Source: Cavenderia fasciculata (taxonomy: Eukaryota > Evosea > Eumycetozoa > Acytosteliales > Cavenderiaceae). Taken from it: DNA of 64,000 bases. Under the pieces are notes generated by a model that did not search any database, was not told where the DNA came from, and saw only the letters and a program-made list of their open reading frames with translations. Location of the stretch: contig NW_004457639.1 of the NCBI RefSeq assembly GCF_000203815.1, positions 806,001 to 870,000 of the forward strand, in the 5' to 3' direction. Of the stretch, positions 2,125 to 64,000 are shown piece after piece; the stretch's first letter is position 1, and every line of letters begins with the position of its first letter. Position numbers and translations under genes: made by a program.

Positions 2125-2752
2125 TTATAAATATTCTTTTCGATCAATCGTGATTGTTGTTGTTGTTGTTGATGTTGATGTTGATGTTAATGTCGGGAGG
2201 AAATTGTTGGAAAATGGTAACCAGATTATAATAGTTTGAAGAGTAAATGAGAATCTATTCAACATAAACTCCAATGAAATCGAATCATTATTATCAATAA
2301 TCACACCCAATAAATCTCTAAATACAATATCATGATCCTACAATGGTATATGGAAGAGTTTAGTAAGTATAATGATTATAGAACGAAAAGGTAATAAAGG
2401 AGTTAACTTTATATTTTATTACATTTTAATTACATACCAATATGACATTATCATCTTTACAACCAAGTTTGATTGTATCATATACTCTATCGAAATGATC
2501 AATAAACAAGTCAGATCTATTGATTCTAATAAACTCTTGTAATGATATCACTTGAGATATCTTTACTATCAATGTTAATCCCTTTTGATGTTTACGTCCA
2601 ATGAAATATCTATCAACTATTGCTTGATGAATATGGTTGACATGATTGAATATCTTTGTTCGGAGATACCGATTATTTATAATACTCTTGAACTGTAGTG
2701 ATGATTCACTGTTCTTCTTCTTTTGGTTATCTATATAGCCACCACCCACCAT
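2125..2752 (-). CDS. Truncated tandem copy of the ankyrin-like gene
   Basis: Exons 2752-2438 and 2337-2125 give a 175-residue protein. Exon 1 is near-identical to exon 1 of the neighbouring gene (shared blocks such as SIINNRYLRTKIFNHVNHIH and VISLQEFIRINR). The intron sits at the same place and phase (L|DHD), and exon 2 matches for about 35 codons (NNDSISLEFMLNRFSFTLQT). After that the homology stops and the frame runs into a short Thr/Ser tail and a stop. The copy therefore carries about the first 145 residues of a much longer protein. It is a partial tandem duplication; it may be a pseudogene or a short expressed protein. There is no stop or frameshift within the retained part. Confidence 0.6.
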
Positions 2753-14776: not shown

Positions 14777-17220
14777 ATGTCTACATCAACAGCAGTGAAA
14801 CCAAACATTACTCTACTACAACCACAATCTGTAGTCATTACGAGTCAAGATCAAATTAAAAGTGTACGTTTGAGTAATCGTTATAGTCATCATCATCATC
14901 ATCATAATATACACTAGAACTAACCCTAATCCTAACCTCTTATTCAATGTCAATGTCTATATGATATAATAGAAATTAGAAGAGAATCAAATATTAATAC
15001 AATCAATCTTTGAGAATCAAAATGCATCTAGATTACAAGATTGTTTACAATATCAGTCACAGCTACATGGTAATTTGTTAGCACTTATTGGTATTATTGA
15101 TATTCAAACCTCTCAACTTGTATGTTAAACAATATATATATATATATATTGTAAATAGATGATGATAGATTGAATGATTAACTTTGTTATTTTGATAATT
15201 ATAGAACCGACAACATGCAATGCTTAAAACACCACAGCAACAACAGCAACAACAACAACAACAACCACCAGTTGGTATGCCGATAACTACAGATTCTACA
15301 ACTACAAATGCTAATTCTCCTTTGGGATCTACTACTATTGTTGGTGCTGCTAATAATAATAATAATAATAATACTACAGCTGCAACGACGACTACTACGA
15401 CGATAACAACACCAAACATGGCTATTCCCGAAACTCAAACACAACCGATATCACAAGCTACACAAAGACCAATGGGAACGATCGTACATCCTCCTCAACA
15501 ACCTCAACCACAACAACAACAACAACAACCGACCACCATTGTTTCACCACCTGTTTATTCATCACCTGTACAAAATCAACAACTACCAAACCAACAGACC
15601 AATAATGTTAATACTCCACAACAACAACAACCTATTACACCTCAACAACAAACTTCCTCCAACTTGGCAGCTGCTACCAATGTAGCTGCTGCTACCGCGG
15701 TAGGACAACCAACACGACAACCATCACAACCACAAATCAAGCCACCTGCACAGACACAACCGGCGACAGGCTCTACTGGGGCTGCCCCAACCAATTTTGC
15801 AGCGATGAACACCCAACAACTGTTGCACACGGGTCAGCAACTAAACATCTACATTCAGCAATACCAGGCACAGATGACCCAGACTACGCAGCAGATGCAG
15901 ATGCAATCTGGCAATCCCGTCGCACAAGCACAGCTACAACAACAATACACTCAACTTTCAAACACACTCGCAGCACTTCAACAACAATTCAATCAGTTGA
16001 AAGCGTACTTGCAAAGACAACAACAGGCAATCCAACAACAACAGCAACAGCAACAACAACAACAACAACAACAACAGCAACAGCAACAATTACAACAAAC
16101 TCAACAACAGCCTGTCCAACAACAACAACAACCACAGATACAACAACAACAACAAACTCAAATACAACAGCAACCTGTCCAACAACAACAACCACAGGTA
16201 CAACAACAACAACCAACACAACAACAAGTACAACAACCAATACAACAGGTTCAACAACCAATACAACAACAACAAAATACATTTGCTACTCCACAACAAC
16301 CACAACAACAACCATCACTAACTCAACAACAAGTAGCAGCATTGCAGTTACAAATCAAGGCCTATAGAGAGCAGCACACTGCATTGACGGTCCAGATTCA
16401 ACAGCATCGGGCATTGTTGGCGCAGTTGCAGGCACTCCCTACCAACACACTGACACCACAACAGCAGCAGCAACAACAATACTGTATTTCCACCGTCCAA
16501 ACATTGGAGAACAATGCCCACTATTTACACCAAATAACAACCAACCCATCCTCCTATTTACAACTCCTACTTCAACAACAACCTCAGTTTTTGGCCCAAC
16601 AACAAGCTCAACAATTGGCATTACAACAAGCTCTGCAACAACAACAACAACAACAGCAACAATTACAACAAAATCAACAATTACAACCACCTGTTGCAAT
16701 GCAACAACAACAACCAGTCGCAGTACAACAACCATTGGCACCACCAATAACACCACAACAACAATTTCAAAATCCATCATCACCTCCATTGTCAAACTCC
16801 ACTTCAAGTGTAGCAGCTTCGCCCTCAAAAGAACCCAGCAGGAAAAAATCAAAATCATCATCTTCAACCTCATCGGAATCATCTCACACCAAACAAGCGT
16901 CATCACATTGGACACCAGATGAACATACACTCTTTTTAGAGGCATTATCAAAATATGCAGTTAAAGATTACCAAGGTATCTCCTCTCATGTTAAAACGAG
17001 AACACCCAATCAGGTGAGAACTCATCTCAACACTCATATGCGAAATCAAAAGAAAAAGGAACAAACCCAAGTATTGGCTGCATCGGGCGGTGTCGAGTCA
17101 TTCTCATCGCCACTTTCAGTTCAAACGCCAAGTTCACCTCCACAATCATCTCCTCCTATTCCAAGTGAATTGGCTTCTTCAACAACTTCAATGGGTGTTC
17201 CTCCTTTTAAAAGAAAATGA
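14777..17220 (+). CDS. SS18/SSXT (SNH) domain fused to a Myb/SANT domain, polyQ transcription regulator
   Basis: Exons 14777-14863, 14973-15119 and 15205-17220 encode 749 residues. Residues about 27-78 (SKLEENQILIQSIFENQNAS..CLQYQSQLHGNLLALIGIID) match the SNH/SSXT domain of SS18 and plant GIF/AN3 coactivators, which contacts SWI/SNF complexes. Several hundred residues of Gln-rich sequence follow, with two helical Gln-rich islands (NFAAMNTQQLLHTGQQLNIY and QVAALQLQIKAYREQHTALT). Near residues 610-660 a SANT/Myb repeat occurs (HWTPDEHTLFLEALSKYAVKDYQGISSHVKTRTP..VRTHLNTHM), close to the plant-type SHAQKY single-Myb class. The protein is thus a predicted DNA-binding factor carrying its own chromatin-coactivator domain. 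The two N-terminal exons would be lost if annotation began at the first long ORF. Confidence 0.85.
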
Positions 17221-53597: not shown

Positions 53598-56500
53598 TTA
53601 TTTGTTATCTTTTTCTCTCTCTCTCTCTCTGTCTTTTATTAATATAGATAATAATGATTGAATATTATTAGATGTTTGTTGATTTGATTGATAAATAGCC
53701 AATTCATCAAAATCGAGTCGAAAGAAACCGTACTTTTGAAGCCTGGGATTCAATCTTGTATCAAATTCGGATATAATCGATTTAATTTGGTCGACAATTG
53801 GATGATAATTATCATCATCTTCACCAAGACACTCGTTTGGATATAATTGCATGATATGATAGAAGTTTTCGATACATTGTGTGTTTTTGATGTGATGATT
53901 GATTGGAAGTTTCTCTAACCACTCTGGAATGACTTTACGTACCAATGGAGACAATTGAGGTACATGTCTAATTAACTTTCCAATTGCTGAAATGGCATCG
54001 ACAGTTGCCTCAACCATTTCCTTTCCCTTGTCTTCTTTTCGAGATACGAGGTCTTTGAGTTGTCTGAGTGTTGTAAATAGGTATGGTGCAAATTGCTCCT
54101 TGGCATTGGCTGCAGCCACACCCAATCCAAATGCTGCATTTTGTGCAGACTCGTCACAGTCTGATGAAAGATATTCAATCATGACTGGAATGATTTGAGG
54201 ATACAATGCAATACTTGGTTGACCACCAAATTCACAAATATCTGAAAACATTTGTAGTATTGATTGCTTGATATAATTGTCTACTTTTCGGTTATTGATA
54301 AATTGCAAAGTATCTGATAAAATATCCATTACTATGATGACACGGATCGCAACCTCTTTTGTTTTTTTGACAAAATGACCAACCAATTTGTAGAGATTTG
54401 CCAGTAGTTCAATATTAGAGTCTTGATCCACCTCGTAGTCTTCATCTCTGTCGTCCACTAAAAGAAGACCAAACACCTTATTTTTGATAATCCACAATTT
54501 TGAAATGGCATTTGTGATTTGTTCGGAGGTCATGAAATAGTCTGCCATCATTTCTGTCAAGTTTCTTGCAACAAACAACTTTTTACTGAACAAATCGATA
54601 TCTTGGTCACTCCACGAACCAATCCACGAATCCAAGATACATGATAGTAATCTAGAGTATAGTGTTGTGGCTTGTTGACTATGGTTTCCATATTTATCGT
54701 TGCTTACACAGAGTAATGGATAGAAATTATTAATGGCACGATAACAAATATCAGTAGCATCATAAATATCTTGGTCATCTGCAACTTGGGTGATTGAGAG
54801 TCTTGTACAAACATTGACCAATGTCTCGAGATATGGAATAATGCTAGAATCGGTCCAGTCTAAAAAGTATCTGAGGCCTTTTAATGCACGGACCATCAGT
54901 CGTGCAATAGGCTCGCGAGTTCGACCGACCGATTGATTGAGAATATCCAAAATGATTTTCATTGTTGGTGCAATGTAGATTGAATAATCTTTTCCAAGAG
55001 TCTCTGATGCCTCCATACATATTTTGATATAATCTGAAAATATACCATATTCGACACCACACTTCATCTCGTTGAAATGTTCAAGAAAAGCTTTAAATTG
55101 CTTTGAGAATCGTTTACCATTTCTTTTTGCAAATTCGCGAATCGCTTCCAAGGCTAAATGACCAATTTTAGAATAATATAGTTCGGAAATTAAAATAATC
55201 TTGATAAAAATTGTATTTGAAAAGAAAAACTATAAATATAAAGATAATTAATTAATTGTTTTCAAAAACAATTTAGATATAATAGACATAAAATTAACCA
55301 AAACTTTTATGTCTAAAAATTCTTATTTATAAATATGTTTTTTCTAATTCTTTTTTTTTTCTCTAGGGTGTGATTTTATTAATGTATTTTTAAATAATTG
55401 TCAAAAGGACTGTTTAGAATCAATTTCACCAAATAATTTATTTATTACACTTGAAAATTTATTAGAAACACCACGTATTTCTATTTTAAAAAGTACTTTA
55501 TATGCAATTACCTCTATATTTTTAGTTGCTGGAAAAACAAATACTTCTGTTTGTATTATTAGCATAATAATAAATTAACCAAAAACATATTTATAAATAA
55601 GAATTTTTAGTAAATACTTGCAAGCCAAGTTTACACGATCGTTTGAATCTTGATTTACTATTTCAATGGTATAGGGTAAGAGTTGATTGACAAGACTAAT
55701 CGAAAAATGTGGGCCATCCCTAAATACCTCTGAAAGAAAAGTAAAAAATGCGCATCCAACTCGAGGATTGGTATCAATGGCAGTTGACATAAAAACCTTG
55801 ATAATTTTCTCCATTTCTTGTCCAATAGACTCTGATTGGTCATAATGTTCAGTCAAATAGGGAACCATTTTAGTATAGAGTAACAATGAGACATATCTAT
55901 CTTTCCAAAATGTTGAGACCACTCTTCTTTTGCATTCCTCTAGAATGATATTTGATAGAACTGGATTTGCTAAAAACTGTGCAAATTCTTTAATCGTTTG
56001 TTCATCTGAATAATCTAAAACCTCTTTTGAATACCCTGAGTACTCGTCTGAATCATCAGAATCTTCCAAATCCGAATCATCAGAGTCGTCTGAATCATGG
56101 TTTTTTTTTTTTTCATCAATATCATTATTCCAAATGTCTAGATCTATTTCTTTAACTTTACAAGAAACATTTGAATAGATTAATGATACAAATTGTTCGG
56201 GTTGTTGTTGTTGTTGATCCCATTCTACGAGGTCATCACTTGAAACTGATAATAACATTTTGAGTGTCATTCCTATGACTGGTAATTCCAAAGACGTTTC
56301 TGGTTGTTTTAAAATGGGCATGAATGTTTCAATGGTGATTCTAGCATGGTGATTGGTAAACCAGTCTGATGAAGCATTTGATAATCTTTGGATGGCGTAA
56401 CTGACGTATTCCATTTCACCTGCACGAAAAGCTTGACCAATAAGTGACATGATCCATGGAATGACTTCATCACGAATAGAATCAAAATCGATAAAATTTA

Positions 56501-57187
56501 ATAGCTCCAACGATTCCCATCGAATTCTCTTACTACTATTAATACTATTATTGTTCTTTAGTCTGGTTACCACGATGACCATTTCTATCGATGAATCAAT
56601 ATTAATACCACGCATCCTGTCCAACAACCGCATTCCTGTATATATTGAAGACTCGTTTTCATTTTCGATCAGTTCTATCAATACAGTTTTAATATAATCT
56701 CTTCTTTTATCTATAGATTCAAATTAATTTTATAAGATATTCAAAATATTGGTTATTCTAAATATCATTATTCTGTTGGATAAAGTAAATTAGATGCTGA
56801 TTGAATTGATGCAACAATCATGTCCATATTCTTGTTTGACTTTGCTTGTTTGGTTGATTCTATGATTTTTGATTTTAATAGATCAACTAGTAAAGCTTTG
56901 TTTGATGTTTGTTCCATTACAACACTTAACAATCTATTTGAATTTGATAGAATCTATAATAGTTGGGAAAAGGTATTTAAGTAGATTGATCGATAGAGGA
57001 GGAGGACTAGATAGATATCTATTATAATTACAGTTTCATCTTGACTATTGCTTAAAAGATAGAATAACCATGAAATAACATCTTCAATTTGTTTATCAAT
57101 GTATTTTTGTATTTGTATTTGTATTGTTTTATCATCCTCTTGTTCAACGAGTTGAATAAATTCTAATGGAGGCGAACCATTCATCAT
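53598..57187 (-). CDS. Importin-5-like (karyopherin beta) gene with irregular splice sites
   Basis: Pieces 57187-57032, 56953-56773, 56710-55622 and 55153-53598 join in phase to 993 residues of HEAT-like helices. The C-terminal part is diagnostic of importin-5/Kap121 (SDCDESAQNAAFGLGVAAAN, then VEATVDAISAIGKLIRH), as is the middle part (LEKLPINHH). An acidic insert at about 56040-56110 is dictyostelid-like. Importin-5 carries ribosomal proteins and histones into the nucleus with Ran-GTP. Two joins are abnormal: after exon 2 the sequence has no GT donor (ACAG|AATAATG) and the frame otherwise stops at 56768, and exon 3 uses a GC donor (GCAAGT). The third intron is about 470 nt, long for this genome, and holds an inverted repeat. 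It may be a decaying paralogue or a gene with rare splice sites. Confidence 0.7.
55313..55610. repeat. 30-bp perfect inverted repeat flanking a plus-strand exon
   Basis: The arms are at 55313-55342 and 55581-55610 and are exactly complementary over 30 bp, starting CTAAAAATTC on the left. A 13-bp direct repeat (AAATTAACCAAAA) also occurs at 55291 and 55572. The 238-bp core carries a spliced-looking ORF. The structure lies inside the third intron of the importin-like gene. Confidence 0.85.
55367..55578 (+). other. Isolated coding-like exon nested in the importin intron
   Basis: A T-run and CTCTAG acceptor at 55351-55366 lead into 69 open codons plus TAA (CDFINVFLNNCQKDCLESIS, then FITLENLLETPRISILKSTL). 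It is on the strand opposite to the host gene. No upstream exon or ATG in frame was found; the nearest ATG (55310) is followed by a stop after seven codons. It could be the last exon of a captured or displaced gene. The family is not recognised. Confidence 0.4.
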
Positions 57188-57510
57188 TAAATAGTATGTA
57201 AAAATAAATACACAAAAGAAGATTAGGGTGTGAAAAAAATGAATAAGATTGTTTGTCTATACGTATTCTCTCTTTATTATTTTCGATGCTCCTAAAAGAG
57301 CACCCATATATGTTTAGAATAGACTTGAAAAAAATTACCCATGGTTGATATTTAATTAAGAGAGAGAAATTATCTCTAATTCTTTAGAAGTCCATATGCG
57401 TATTTATTACTTTTAATTTTGTAAACAAACTAAAAATATTGGGCATTTCATTCAGCTCATTTTCTTTCTTTAAATAAATAAATAATTAATAATAAATTAA
57501 AGTTTAATAC

Positions 57511-57567
<57 letters not shown>

Positions 57568-58432
57568 TTAAGTGTCATTGAATAATAATAATAATAAATA
57601 AAACGATTGTATATTATAAAAGGTTGAATAAATTAATCATTTCTTTGTTTTTTTTTTTGTCATGATCAATCAAATCTTTGCTTTAATATCTGATCAATAT
57701 TAATGATGATGAAGATGATGATGATGATCGATTAGTGGTAGTAGTGTTCATTGGACAGACACCAATTTTTGGTAAACAAGTCTCATTATCTAACACCCCA
57801 CCCCACCATTGTCACAAAACAGTGTATTAATTTCTATTTAATTTTTGGTGATCCACTGCTATACCCACCACCACCACCCCATATTTATCGATCTCTCCTT
57901 CTCTCCTCATCTTTTTTTCCTCTTGTTCGATACCACACCATATTGATTTTAGATCATTAAGCATTATGATAATAATCATGATGATAATAGAAAATTAACA
58001 TTACAATTAGCCAAGGATTCAATTTGATCATTTCTATTTATATTTCTATTAATAATTTTATTTATTTATTCCTTAAACTTTTAAACCATTCATTGCATCG
58101 AACCCACACCCTCTCACCCACTCACCATATATATACATATAAATTTATAATATTAGTATTATTTAAACACCAGTCATAATTTAATTCGTATAACTTTTTT
58201 CCCTCCTCCTCCAACTACAACTTGTTAATTTTCTATTAATGGTTCTTCAACAAACAAAATATATTTTTAAATTCATTGTTGTTGCTTGTGTTTGTTGTTT
58301 GTCTATACTATATCTTGTTTCGTAAGAGTTAAGCTATACTTGTTAATACCAAAAAAAATTAATTAAGTTTTGATCAAAAAAGTAGCAAGTTAAACATATT
58401 TAATATTAATCACAGATTCCATCACCATCATC
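57188..58432. other. Divergent intergenic region with TA microsatellite and 5'-UTR intron
   Basis: About 1.2 kb. It includes (TA)n at about 57513-57561, a GAT/ATG run near 57703-57729 and a C-rich (CCACC) stretch near 57870. Near the right end an ATG at 58239 opens a hydrophobic 28-codon frame, and a GTAAGA...CACAG pair (58322-58415) marks a likely 5'-UTR intron of the next gene. No other gene is seen. Confidence 0.6.
57513..57561. repeat. (TA)n microsatellite
   Basis: About 24 uninterrupted TA units in the spacer upstream of the second 7-TM paralogue. Confidence 0.9.
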
Positions 58433-59779
58433 ATGTATTATGGACCAAATATAACAGCAGAGTCTTTGGGAGGGGGTCCTATATATAATGATTTAGCCAT
58501 AACATATATGATCATTCGTATTATAGTTTGTACATACATCATTATAATTTGTTTTACCCAAGTTGTTTTGGAATACAAATATCAGATATCACTTAAAAGT
58601 TTTATCAATCCTAGAATTTATACTTATTTTGGTGTTATTATGTATTTATTTTGTATGTAAATTAAATAAATAAATTAATCAATATTCCCTTTATATATAT
58701 ATTTTATTTAAATATCAATACTAATACTAAATATATTTAAATAGTTAGAATATTATATACAATTACATTTTTTGTTACGGGGAGTGAAACAGTTGGAACA
58801 GTACCAGATTTACTATCATTTTGGTCATTATTCTTTCAATTTTATAGTTGGACTTGGGTAGGTGCTTATTGGGGTAGATTGGTCTTGGCATTGTTTTCAG
58901 TCAATATCTTAAAGTATGACAAGTTGGTATGGATATCTTCATGGATTATGATTGGTACATCGCTGATGTATGTTGTCATCTACCACATACTAGCCTTCAA
59001 ATACCCGAGTCAAGCATCAAACTTTTTCGTCGGTGGATTCCTGGCTATCGCAGCACTCTATGGTGGACTGTGTATTCTGACAGGCACAGTATTGTATAGA
59101 CAAATTAAAAAAAAGGAAGAACTTTTCACAGATCGAATCAATTCGATTATTGGTCGTATTAGAATATTGGCTATCATCTTGACTGCCAGTATTGCCATTA
59201 TCCTAGTACGTGATTTAATATTTTATGTTATCCTTGGTATACCAATCTATTCAGTATTGAAACATATATCAAATGTCATAACAATGATCATTGAATTTGC
59301 TGTTGCTTTTTGTAAGTATCAAATTACAATTAATAATCAATCAATCAGTCAATCAATTCCTAATACTTATTTATATCTCTTTCTATCTATCTATCTATTT
59401 AGGTATAATGGTATCGATTGCAGAGAAACCATATAATTATTTAACATTTAAATGTGTTAATCCAAGTATGAACAAACCATTACATGAAAAAGAGTCTAGT
59501 GCAAGTGGCCGTCGTATGACTATATCTTCGAGGTGTTCAAATGATGCTTTATCCAGTACAAGCTCATCATCGAGTAATACTACCAATGTCTTGCCACCAA
59601 AATCAAAATCTAAATCACAAATTCAAATGAATCGATTATCCATTGTTGATGTTCAATCAATACTCTCCACCCATCAACCAAATGTTGATGCCAACAACAA
59701 CAGCATCCCAATAACCCAAGAACCTAATAATAATAATAATGAAAAGGTAAATAGTAATAGTGGTGACGGTAATGTTTAA
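58433..59779 (+). CDS. 7-TM protein, tandem paralogue B
   Basis: Exons 58433-58652, 58745-59311 and 59403-59779 encode 387 residues. It shares the N-terminus (GPNITAESLGGGPIYND), the FRILYTIT segment, SWTWVGAYWGRLVLALFSVN, FFVGGFLAIAALYGG, LYRQIKKKEELFTDRINSII-GRIRILAI and SNVITMIIEFAVAFC with paralogues A and C. Compared with paralogue A, introns one and three are absent. The tail is shorter and lacks the Ser block common to A and C. A spliced leader is likely (intron 58322-58415). Function as for paralogue A; unknown. Confidence 0.8.
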
Positions 59780-60493
59780 ATGAAATTTCAAATGGAACCC
59801 CTCGAGTACAGGTGCTCTTCAAAAAAGAAATAAATTCTAAAAAACTAACGATTTGTTTGAAGGATAAATATCCTTTCAATTATTAAAAAAAGAATAAAGA
59901 GATCTTTTGTTCGGGACTTGAAAGAGAGTCTAGTTTTTAGACCCGGTGTACAGGGGACTGTCCCCTCCTATCCATCCCATTCTTCTTTCATAAGCACAAC
60001 ACTGAATAAATTTTAAGAAGAAGGCGACGACGACATTACAATGATCGTTGGAAATTGAAAAAACTAATCGTGAAGAAGGGTGGGAGGGAGGGAGGGGGAT
60101 GTGAGCAAATAGGGGGTGCTCTAAAAGCCCCAAAAGGCAATAAGTTTTGCCTATGAACACCAATCATTGAATATTTGGTTTTCAGGGTAGAGTTTTTCGT
60201 GCATTAGAGTGTTCATCTTTTATCTTGATGCTCCAGCAAAAAAGAGATCAAAACCACATCTGTCTGTGGTTGCGCGCCTTCACTAATTGTGATGCACCTC
60301 CTGTGCAGAGGGGGTAGGTCTTTCATTCTGTTGGTTGTTGAAGGTAGGAAGGAACCCCTTTCATCTATTATTATTATTATTTATTATTATTTATTATTAG
60401 TTTTAGTAGAGTAGAGTAGTGTTCAACAAGGTTTAGGTTGATTGGTTTACAACAACAAAACAAGATAGAAAGAAAATAACACTACTATTTGTT

Positions 60494-60531
<38 letters not shown>

Positions 60532-60666
60532 AAGAAGAAGAGTTGGATAGAAGTTTGATCAATGGTTAAATAGCAATAATAATAATAATAGTTATTAATA
60601 ACCAACCAACCAACCAACCAACCAATCAACCAATCAATCAACTAATTTTATAATAGAAGCCAAAAA
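59780..60666. other. Intergenic region with hairpins and a G4 motif
   Basis: About 890 nt between paralogues B and C. It contains a short inverted repeat around AGGGGACTGTCCCCT (about 59952-59967), the G-tract at 60078-60098, a hairpin ACCACA/TGTGGT near 60254-60271, (TA)n near 60500-60525 and CCAA repeats at 60601-60630. No ORF is credible. Confidence 0.6.
60078..60098 (+). other. G-quadruplex motif
   Basis: Five G-runs of three or more, separated by single bases, within 21 nt. This is a textbook short-loop G4 pattern and very unusual in this AT-rich setting. Confidence 0.75.
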
Positions 60667-62095
60667 ATGGAAACATGGGGACCAAATATAACAAGAGAAT
60701 CACTTGGAGGAACAGAAGCTTTTACGGCATTAGCATATTCTTATATGATCATACGTATTCTTGTTAGTGCAATCATAACAATCTTGGTATCGGTTCAAAT
60801 GTACTTTGAAATTAGATATTCTCATTCGCGACAGAGTTTGATTAACCCGAGATTTTTGTCAATGATCGGAGTTGCCATTTATCCAATTTGTAAGTAATAA
60901 ATAGAAGTTATATATATAACTTGTCTTGTTGAATCCACTCACTTACATTTGATTTTTCTTTTCATCTACATAGTCAGAGTATTATATACAGCAGTTTATT
61001 TTTATACATTGACTGAAGAGGTTGGTACTGTTTGTGACTATATTTCAATTTGGGCACTTTACTTTCAATTATTTAGTTGGACTTGGGTTGCTGCTTATTG
61101 TAAGTTGTATATTTTGAAATTATGAATGATAAATGAATCAATGATTATGATGATTAACAAAACTTTTGGTCATTTTAATATTTTAGGGGGTCGATTATTA
61201 TTAGCATTATTTTCAGTTATATTGACCTATGATAGAAAGGTATGGGTTTTTGCATGGGGCATTATAGGAGTATCGATGGTATTTGTAATTGTATATCATG
61301 TGGTTGCCAAGGTAGCTCCGTCGGTAGGTCTCTATTTATTTAGTGCCGGATTTCTAACGATCCTGGCCATCTTTGGAACGATCTGTGTCAATTGCGGATT
61401 CTTTTTATATCGACAAGTGTACCAATACAAAGGACAACTATTAACAGATAGAGTCAAAGGTATTCTCAGGCGTATTCGTATATTAGCCATCATCATGACA
61501 TGTGCTATCATCGTTACACTTATTCGAGATTTACTCTATTACATTGTATTGAAAATACCTGTTACCAGTGTTTACAAACATGCATCCAATGTAATTACAA
61601 TGTCTGTTGAGTTTGTTTTGGCTGGCTGTAAGTAACCTCTAGTGTTAAATAAGAATTGTATAATTCTTTAATTTATATTAATTTTTATTTATTTAATTTG
61701 TTGTAATAGGTGTAATGATATCAGTTTCAGAAGAACCAATTAATTATTTTAAATTTCAATGTATTAATCCTAGTTTGGTGCCAAAGGTTCAATATGAAAA
61801 GGATCATTCATTTAATTCAGCAACTAGTAGTCTTTCACAAAAGTCTACATCATTGTCTATTGGATCCAATAGAACGACCACCTCGGGTGTTTCCAGTCCT
61901 AGTAAATCTAGGGCACAATCTAATATACAAATACAAAGACCAAAAGGATCAATCATTTTATCAAAACAATCTAGTAGTAGTAGTAATAGCGGTACTAGTA
62001 CTAGTATAAATAGTAGTGTTAGTAGTAGTAATGAAAATAATTGTATCGATAGTAGTAATAATAATAGTAATGTCAATTTGGACCAACCATCTTCC

Positions 62096-62146
<51 letters not shown>

Positions 62147-62275
62147 GATATTATTCCAAATGTTAATAATAATATACCAAATAGTAATAGTAATAATAAT
62201 AATAATAATAATAATGTACCAATAGTTGAAACCAATATCCGAAGAGATGAAGATGATGGTGATCACAATGTTTAA
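60667..62275 (+). CDS. 7-TM protein, tandem paralogue C
   Basis: Exons 60667-60889, 60974-61099, 61187-61627 and 61710-62275 encode 451 residues. It shares the paralogue A core: GPNITRESLGGTEAFTALAY, IGVAIYPIFRVLYTAVYF, LFSWTWVAAYWGRLLLALFS, LYRQVYQYKGQLLTDRVKGI and SNVITMSVEFVLAGC. Exons 60974-61099 and 61187-61627 have exactly the lengths of their A counterparts (126 and 441 nt). The intron inside exon 1 of paralogue A is absent here. The tail repeats the A motif DHSFNSATSSLSQKSTSLSI, then becomes Asn-rich. Function unknown. Confidence 0.82.
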
Positions 62276-62551
62276 TTAATTAAAAATATTCATAGATAGA
62301 TAGATAGATAGATAGATAATATAATAAATTATCGATCTGTCATCACCACTATGATCGATCAAACAAAGAGGAATTGATTTCCATTCCATTCCGCTCAACG
62401 TTTATTCAATACACCACAAATTTGATTTAATTAATTCTTTTTGTTTTTTATTGCATCGTCACACCCCCATTATGCATTCTTATTTCGCATTGAAACATTG
62501 TCTACATACATACATACATACATATATTTCAAGTCTTATTTATATATAAAC

Positions 62552-63244
62552 ATGTCTTCAAGGACTTACATCTCACGTATGATACTTGTAGCATGCTTGC
62601 TTACAACAACACCGCGTTATACTAACATCATACAATTTTTTTAGAGGATGGGTCAGTTGGGAACAAGAATACAAGTATTTGGAGAGTATCAGCGATACCA
62701 GAATTCTTTTGGTACCTACTTAATCAAATCACTTGTTTGTAAGTACCACACTACTACTTTTATTAAAGTTATCAAGAACATTACATTGATTGATTAATTA
62801 ACCATTTCCTATATCATTACATCTATATTAGCTTTCACACTTTAGTTTCAGTAGGTTCATCTTTTTACACAGATAGAGAGAGAGATAGATAAAGAGAGTA
62901 GAATAGAATAGAATATACTAACAATGTTACATTATAAGGACCCAGCAACAGATAAATACAAGAAAACAGGTAGATCTCATTCCGGTGGCGGAGGAGGTGG
63001 TGGATATGGTGGAGGTGGAGGTGGAGGTGGTGGAAACCATAGAGCTGGAGGATTTGGCAGAGTAGCTACAATGCAAAATGTTTGTATGTATCATAAACAT
63101 AAACGTAGTGCTTGGTTGAAAAGATAAAACAACAATCAACAAAAATGGATCCTATTTATTTATTTATTATTCATTATTAATTATTTTTAATCTATATTTA
63201 TTATAGCAAATTGTGATCTTCCACAAGGAGGGTGATCTAGATAA
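62552..63244 (+). CDS. selK: Selenoprotein K, TGA at 63233 read as selenocysteine
   Basis: Five exons join in phase: 62552-62576, 62645-62738, 62832-62850 (19-nt microexon), 62939-63083 and 63207-63244, giving 106 residues. The N-terminus SSRTYISQDGS..NTSIWRVSAIPEFFWYLLNQ is the SelK/SelG block (SRSxWRLSxIxEFFW) and the helix continues ITCFFHTLVS. A cytosolic tail follows (DPATDKYKKTGRSHS, a Gly run, then AGGFGRV). The end is CDLPQGG-TGA-Ser-Arg-TAA: GGUSR matches the invariant GGU-x-R terminus of SelK, so the TGA is selenocysteine (residue 104). A SECIS lies 3' at 63577-63646. SelK is a single-pass ER membrane protein linked to ERAD and to DHHC6-dependent palmitoylation. A standard gene finder would stop at TGA or miss the small exons. 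Confidence 0.9.
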
Positions 63245-63576
63245 ATGCATTTAAATCCAATCTAAATGTGTACCTCTGTTACATTCTTTTTTTTTTTTTC
63301 AAGAAGAACTGGTATGGATGGACGGACGATAAATCGATTGAAATCATTCACACTCTACTACCAGCAATTCTACAAGTAGACGCACAGCACCAATTTAAAT
63401 TATTCTTAAATTGGTTATTTTATTGTTGGAAAAAAAAGAAATGGTTAAATAGTTTCACAAAGAGGTAGATTTAAATGCATTAATATCCTTTGGAAACATT
63501 CAATTTGGGGAATGGTTGATGTAACGAAATATGTATTGTACAAAAAGTATTTATTGTATAAACAATATATTATATT
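63245..63576 (+). other. selK 3' untranslated region up to the SECIS
   Basis: About 330 nt between the selK TAA and the SECIS. A T/C-run with CAAG at about 63284-63301 precedes a 55-codon coding-like frame (NWYGWTDDKSIEIIHTLLPA ...) ending at 63468, with no ATG. It may be chance or a gene remnant; the selenoprotein model needs no coding here. Confidence 0.5.
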
Positions 63577-63646
63577 ATTGTTGTGATGACTGGAACTACC
63601 CTAACCTTTGATCAAGGAGGTAGTTTCATGAAAAATGGTCAACAAT
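63577..63646 (+). promoter_or_regulatory. SECIS element (form II) of selK
   Basis: Hand folding gives helix I (ATTGTTG at 63577-63583 with CAACAAT at 63640-63646), an internal loop, the non-Watson-Crick quartet TGAC (63587-63590) against TGAA (63629-63632), a 10-bp helix II (TGGAACTACC at 63591-63600 with GGTAGTTTCA at 63619-63628, one G-T pair), the AA of the apical bulge (63603-63604), and a CCTT/AAGG mini-stem (63605-63617) typical of form II. All invariant SECIS parts are present in the right order, directing selenocysteine insertion at the upstream UGA. Confidence 0.88.
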
Positions 63647-63901
63647 TCCCTTTTTTGATATTTCCAATTAATCAATTATTACAAATCAAATAAAATGTAT
63701 ATAAAATATAAATATAAAATAATCCCTGGTTTGATTTGGTTTGATTTACAAGTCAGAAGATTCGAACTATAATTGGTTAGGAAATCTCGATCCCGGAATT
63801 GTTCCTTTTTTTTGGAATTCTGAGGGAGGAAGAAGAGACACTTTCAAATTCATCAGCTCTTGTTATTCTTTTACTGTTTATTTTAACTAGTAACGAAAAA
63901 G

Positions 63902-64000
63902 ATGAAGTCACTCGTCGTTGCTATAACTATTCTCTTCTTTGTAGCTTTGACTTCTTCAATAAATCTTTCTCCTGAAGGTATATAAATATTTAAATATATA
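63902..64000 (+). CDS. Secreted protein, first exon only (cut by window edge)
   Basis: The ATG at 63902 begins MKSLVVAITILFFVALTSSI-NLSPEG, a clear signal peptide with a probable cleavage after TSS or SSI. A donor GTATAT follows at 63978 after the G of the last codon, so the gene continues past the window. The product cannot be identified from 25 residues. Confidence 0.65.

Follow-up and report, generated by a model that had tools for sequence, protein, structure and literature searches.

A probable selenoprotein K gene with an in-frame UGA and a form II SECIS element in the social amoeba Cavenderia fasciculata

Introduction

A short spliced reading frame of Cavenderia fasciculata is interrupted, close to its end, by a TGA triplet, and the question raised by this locus is whether the triplet stops translation or is read as selenocysteine (Sec). 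The locus lies near the end of a 64,000-nucleotide stretch of genomic DNA (assembly GCF_000203815.1, contig NW_004457639.1, positions 806,001 to 870,000, forward strand; G+C 32.6%), which is called the window here and whose numbering is used unless another contig or locus is named. An earlier note, made from the sequence alone, had proposed that the window carries a selenoprotein K (SelK) gene with its SECIS element and that the organism uses selenocysteine. SelK acts in the ER membrane in other organisms, and the motif GGU.R is a trait of the SelK family. The selenoprotein set described for Dictyostelium discoideum comprises SelK, Sep15, SPS2, a deiodinase and MSP, a membrane selenoprotein with two Sec residues (PMC2375036), so that the note's statement that SelK is known in dictyostelids holds for this species. 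In the main texts covered by a partial literature search, selenoproteins of dictyostelids other than D. discoideum were not found treated.

Results

Gene structure and protein

The spliced SelK frame, read from the sequence, extends over 62552-63244 (+) and encodes 106 residues in five exons separated by four GT..AG introns (Table 1), with the splice sites placed manually from the GT..AG dinucleotides and the frame, without a gene finder. This agrees with the complete four-intron gene of the earlier note, as the start, the end and the SelK motifs are all found in the sequence. The spliced product reads MSSRTYISQDGSV...SIWRVSAIPEFFWYLL...PQGG-U-SR, and the sole interruption of its frame is the TGA at 63233-63235, the third-last codon ahead of the TAA. 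In the spliced frame this TGA falls within GG-U-S-R, as had been claimed, with GG directly before it near the C terminus (...PQGG-TGA-SR-TAA).

Analysis with Pfam indicated that the spliced protein matches SelK_SelG (PF10961) over residues 5-83 with 63.8 bits (E 2.3e-17, cut-off 23.3), and the product cut at the TGA obtains the identical score. The highest 19-residue hydropathy, at residues 23-41, is only 1.08. Among the PDB matches shown for the SelK query (60 of 135), most fall on the glycine-rich tail and none is SelK. A six-frame profile search with PF10961 gave no match anywhere in the whole genome or the control genomes; since the spliced protein passes, we attribute this genome-wide miss to the shortness of the exons and regard it as a false negative, and SelK paralogues may therefore exist.

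Human SELENOK is a small protein with an FFW region and a Sec near its end, directly after GG. C. fasciculata SelK appears alike in all three respects, whereas its tail is strongly glycine-rich and its proposed Sec is followed by SR.

Table 1. Coordinates of the SelK gene and its SECIS element in the window
Feature	Position	Strand	Remarks
SelK exon 1, coding part	62552..62576	+	ATG start, MSSRTYIS
SelK intron 1	62577..62644	+	GT..AG, 68 nt, TACTAAC near end
SelK exon 2	62645..62738	+	encodes QDGSVGNKNTSIWRVSAIPEFFWYLLNQITC..; Pfam match
SelK intron 2	62739..62831	+	GT..AG, 93 nt
SelK exon 3	62832..62850	+	19 nt; end of hydrophobic segment; frame kept between exons 2 and 4
SelK intron 3	62851..62938	+	GT..AG, 88 nt, TACTAAC near end
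SelK exon 4	62939..63083	+	tail rich in glycine
SelK intron 4	63084..63206	+	GT..AG, 123 nt
SelK exon 5, coding part	63207..63244	+	NCDLPQGG-U-SR-stop
SelK in-frame TGA, proposed selenocysteine codon	63233..63235	+	
SelK TAA stop	63242..63244	+	
Form II SECIS	63577..63646	+	7-bp outer helix at both ends
5' SECIS core AUGAC	63586..63590	+	AUGA quartet 63586-63589
Helix II, 5' strand	63591..63600	+	pairs with 63619-63628
Apical bulge AA	63603..63604	+	bulge is CUAA
Mini-stem CCUU/AAGG (4 bp), loop UGAUC (5 nt)	63605..63617	+	followed by 1-nt 3' bulge
Helix II, 3' strand	63619..63628	+	pairs with 63591-63600
3' SECIS core UGAAA	63629..63633	+	
AATAAA, candidate poly(A) signal	63689..63694	+	42 nt separate AATAAA and SECIS

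The SECIS element

A form II SECIS with quartet, 10-bp stem, AA bulge and mini-stem had been placed 342 nt after the TGA. The element was borne out in all these parts, and the distance holds for the outer helix (from the end of the TGA at 63235 to 63577), while the AUGA quartet itself lies 350 nt downstream. All features of a eukaryotic form II SECIS are present, namely the AUGA..UGA core, helix II with 10/10 pairs, the AA bulge and the mini-stem, and 63577-63583 (ATTGTTG) can pair with 63640-63646 (CAACAAT) as an outer helix of 7 bp.

A descriptor composed of ATGA, at least 9/10 helix pairs, AA and TGA matched a single place on both strands of the 64-kb window, the SelK element. In 100 dinucleotide shuffles, the mean number of matches per window was 0.55 at 9/10 pairs or more and 0.01 at 10/10, and no shuffled window held a match at or below -13.3 kcal/mol. 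The full descriptor, AA included, has no second match in the window and seldom fits shuffled sequence, and chance was rejected as the origin of the SelK hairpin. The AA counts for this specificity, because two further window sites reach 10/10 pairs when it is dropped. These sites, at 17037 (-) and 19681 (-), are ATGA..TGA hairpins without the AA bulge, the first with -18.6 kcal/mol, and are probably chance.

Rfam did not report a SECIS in the window, and none even at E 10 in 62500-64000. Over the genome at E 10, RF00031 (SECIS_1) listed one place, off every SECIS of the genome, in a loose first look that may drop some. SECIS_1 and the SelK element belong to the same functional class of RNA element, but the element is not listed, which may be a property of the model rather than of the element. 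We also built a covariance model from the deiodinase and Sep15 SECIS of C. fasciculata only, with SelK left out (these genes are described below). With filters off, this two-SECIS model recovered the SelK element from 54000-64000 at 35.8 bits (E 3.5e-6), the runner-up scoring 11.7. The SPS2 SECIS, also with filters off, reached no more than 12.2 bits and stood fourth among the five places listed. Under default filters and across 46 sources, both SelK and SPS2 were missed. The Infernal check that the earlier note had proposed is thus positive for the two-SECIS model with filters off, and negative for this model with default filters and for the Rfam models.

The four SECIS of SelK, deiodinase, Sep15 and SPS2 were aligned by structure, with two loops shortened; in this arrangement, which itself favours structure, 52/56 cells are paired and changes on both sides occur at 14/14 pairs, against 47.8% in shuffles and at most 46.4% for slid structures.

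Other selenoprotein genes

The genome searched comprises 31.0 Mb (30,995,898 bases in 21 contigs). Sep15, deiodinase and selD were located first by protein family, and the hairpins after them were then spotted by eye. The protein family search revealed an in-frame TGA in the Sep15 gene, while the match of the deiodinase homologue covers only the last part of the domain. By eye, the deiodinase DNA reads ..GSYTUMPF.. and the SPS2 DNA reads ..LKGUGCKIPQ... A scan for ATGA, TGA and pairing, with AA in two of three settings, recovered hairpins with 9/10 pairs and AA for the deiodinase, 8/10 pairs and AA for Sep15, and 10/10 pairs for SPS2 only without AA. Looser settings also list chance-like places in the selenoprotein loci and in the window, and the Sep15 and SPS2 SECIS therefore rest on their 3'UTR position and their likeness to the others. 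At the SPS2 locus (L010), the SECIS at 2662-2720 (-) has UCAC in place of the AA-bearing bulge found in the other four SECIS. On the same strand of this locus, about 5280-5230 compared with 4320-4240 appears by eye to be a partial upstream copy of the SPS2 start region without the Sec-codon stretch, perhaps a broken tandem duplication.

The pattern GTGATGACN{36,46}TGAAA fits 46 places in the genome, and its reversed control pattern fits 10. At least 8/10 helix pairs are formed at four of the 46, which are SelK, deiodinase, Sep15 and an element at C14:1093691-1093742 (-). The latter scored 38.8 bits in a four-SECIS model built without it, ranking first among 57 fetched loci, with the runner-up at 18.7. 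About 265 nt upstream of this SECIS ends a single-exon frame of 247 residues (L082:1508-2251, -) with two in-frame TGA codons (U20 and U94) and, by eye, several hydrophobic stretches; Pfam gives no match for it. As the two Sec residues and the hydrophobic stretches fit, the frame is probably an MSP selenoprotein, a name given by fit and without an alignment.

The wider pattern RTRATGACN{34,48}TGAAA fits 345 genome places, compared with 158 for the reversed control pattern; of the 345, 100 were listed and 30 fetched, and helix pairs never exceeded 7/10 in these 30. The other 70 listed places were looked at only where the narrower 46-place pattern also fits, and 245 were unlisted; the genome may hold further SECIS elements.

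The SECIS core

Past the core, the SECIS of SelK, deiodinase, Sep15 and SPS2 share AUGAC/UGAAA, in which a C faces a U, and the scans did not require this C-U. The MSP-like SECIS also fits AUGAC/UGAAA, but it was found with that pattern. AA occurs in the bulge of four of the five SECIS, SPS2 being the one without it.

In the published description, all D. discoideum SECIS have UGUA ahead of the core, a U-U mismatch behind it and AAA in the bulge, with the U-U mismatches of the deiodinase-like SECIS farther from the core (PMC2375036). Compared by this description, the C. fasciculata SelK SECIS has UGUG instead of UGUA, C facing U instead of U-U, and AA instead of AAA.

Decoding machinery

The earlier note had named tRNA-Sec, SBP2, EFSec and SPS2 as genes to look for, and all were found, SBP2 as an SBP2-like protein. 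The tRNA-Sec has a TCA anticodon and scores 61.4 bits (cut-off 47); two more matches of 37.9 bits, under the cut-off, were discarded, as the same search gives matches in 14/14 control genomes, in 5 of them over the cut-off. EFSec domain III (82.4 bits) lies downstream of a GTP_EFTU domain, SepSecS reaches 407 bits at its main match and 22.4 bits at another place, and selD (SPS2) reaches 130.4 bits. SPS2 has been reported in Amoebozoa, in a main text that does not give Dictyostelium by name (PMC4561486). The SBP2-like L7Ae protein at C5:3052991 scores 28.7 bits (cut-off 22.1), the weakest among seven L7Ae matches, and at E 0.001 SBP2 is the one protein in the PDB that it matches (6.5e-19). At its locus (L080:916-1806, -), the ORF has the L7Ae domain towards its N terminus, with a long tail behind it that is charged and rich in glutamine. 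The PSTK candidate is a weak match (34.2 bits, cut-off 382). Together with the SelK match and the SECIS, the tRNA-Sec, EFSec, SBP2-like, SepSecS and selD genes support the use of selenocysteine by this organism.

Discussion

The locus is almost certainly a working selenoprotein K gene. After splicing, its mRNA would encode a protein of small size, in which a single, weakly hydrophobic segment is combined with a tail rich in glycine. SBP2 would bind the SECIS in the 3'UTR and recruit EFSec with Sec-tRNA, so that the UGA would be read as selenocysteine to give the C terminus ...PQGG-U-SR. The membrane location and role of SelK in C. fasciculata are suggested by analogy with other organisms.

Were the TGA instead a true stop, the gene would be a SelK homologue that has lost its Sec, with SR-stop and the hairpin as leftovers. 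In keeping with such a loss, the Pfam score does not depend on the last three residues, and the 75Se labelling of D. discoideum described in PMC2375036 did not reveal SelK. However, the SECIS is intact down to its 10/10 pairs, AA bulge and mini-stem, and the decoding genes are present in the genome, which makes this explanation very improbable. A pseudogene or an assembly artefact, which no positive tool result supports, is less probable still, given the four GT..AG introns, the frame kept across a 19-nt exon, the intact SECIS and the AATAAA. Both explanations were rejected.

As a most likely working selenoprotein gene, SelK of C. fasciculata is a further member of a published family: in both social amoebae SelK belongs to the same family and has a type II SECIS, and the five selenoprotein kinds match the set known from D. 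discoideum, with MSP assigned by fit (PMC2375036). Each dictyostelid species may even have its own SECIS code, common to unrelated genes, in which C-U or U-U at the core changed in step, a proposal that we advance tentatively and hold to be somewhat less than even in likelihood. Were it true, a single trans factor, either SBP2 or the ribosome, would dictate the same exact core sequence to every SECIS within a species. Whether SECIS cores co-evolve with SBP2 can be examined directly through the common C-U core.

If decoding failed, the product would terminate at ...PQGG. In human cells KLHDC2 targets diglycine ends of this kind for destruction, and a similar fate here is conceivable. When human SelK terminates at its UGA, the diglycine end is laid open as a degron for KLHDC2, and the human C-terminal peptide ends in MAGG (PMC12169847). 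A gene set that reads UGA as stop would truncate SelK at this same diglycine end. Such selenoprotein genes are easily missed, because Rfam SECIS_1 listed none of these SECIS in the searches made. With the SelK gene of C. fasciculata, likely UGA recoding is clearly seen in a second dictyostelid besides D. discoideum, and the five kinds of selenoprotein are the same in both.
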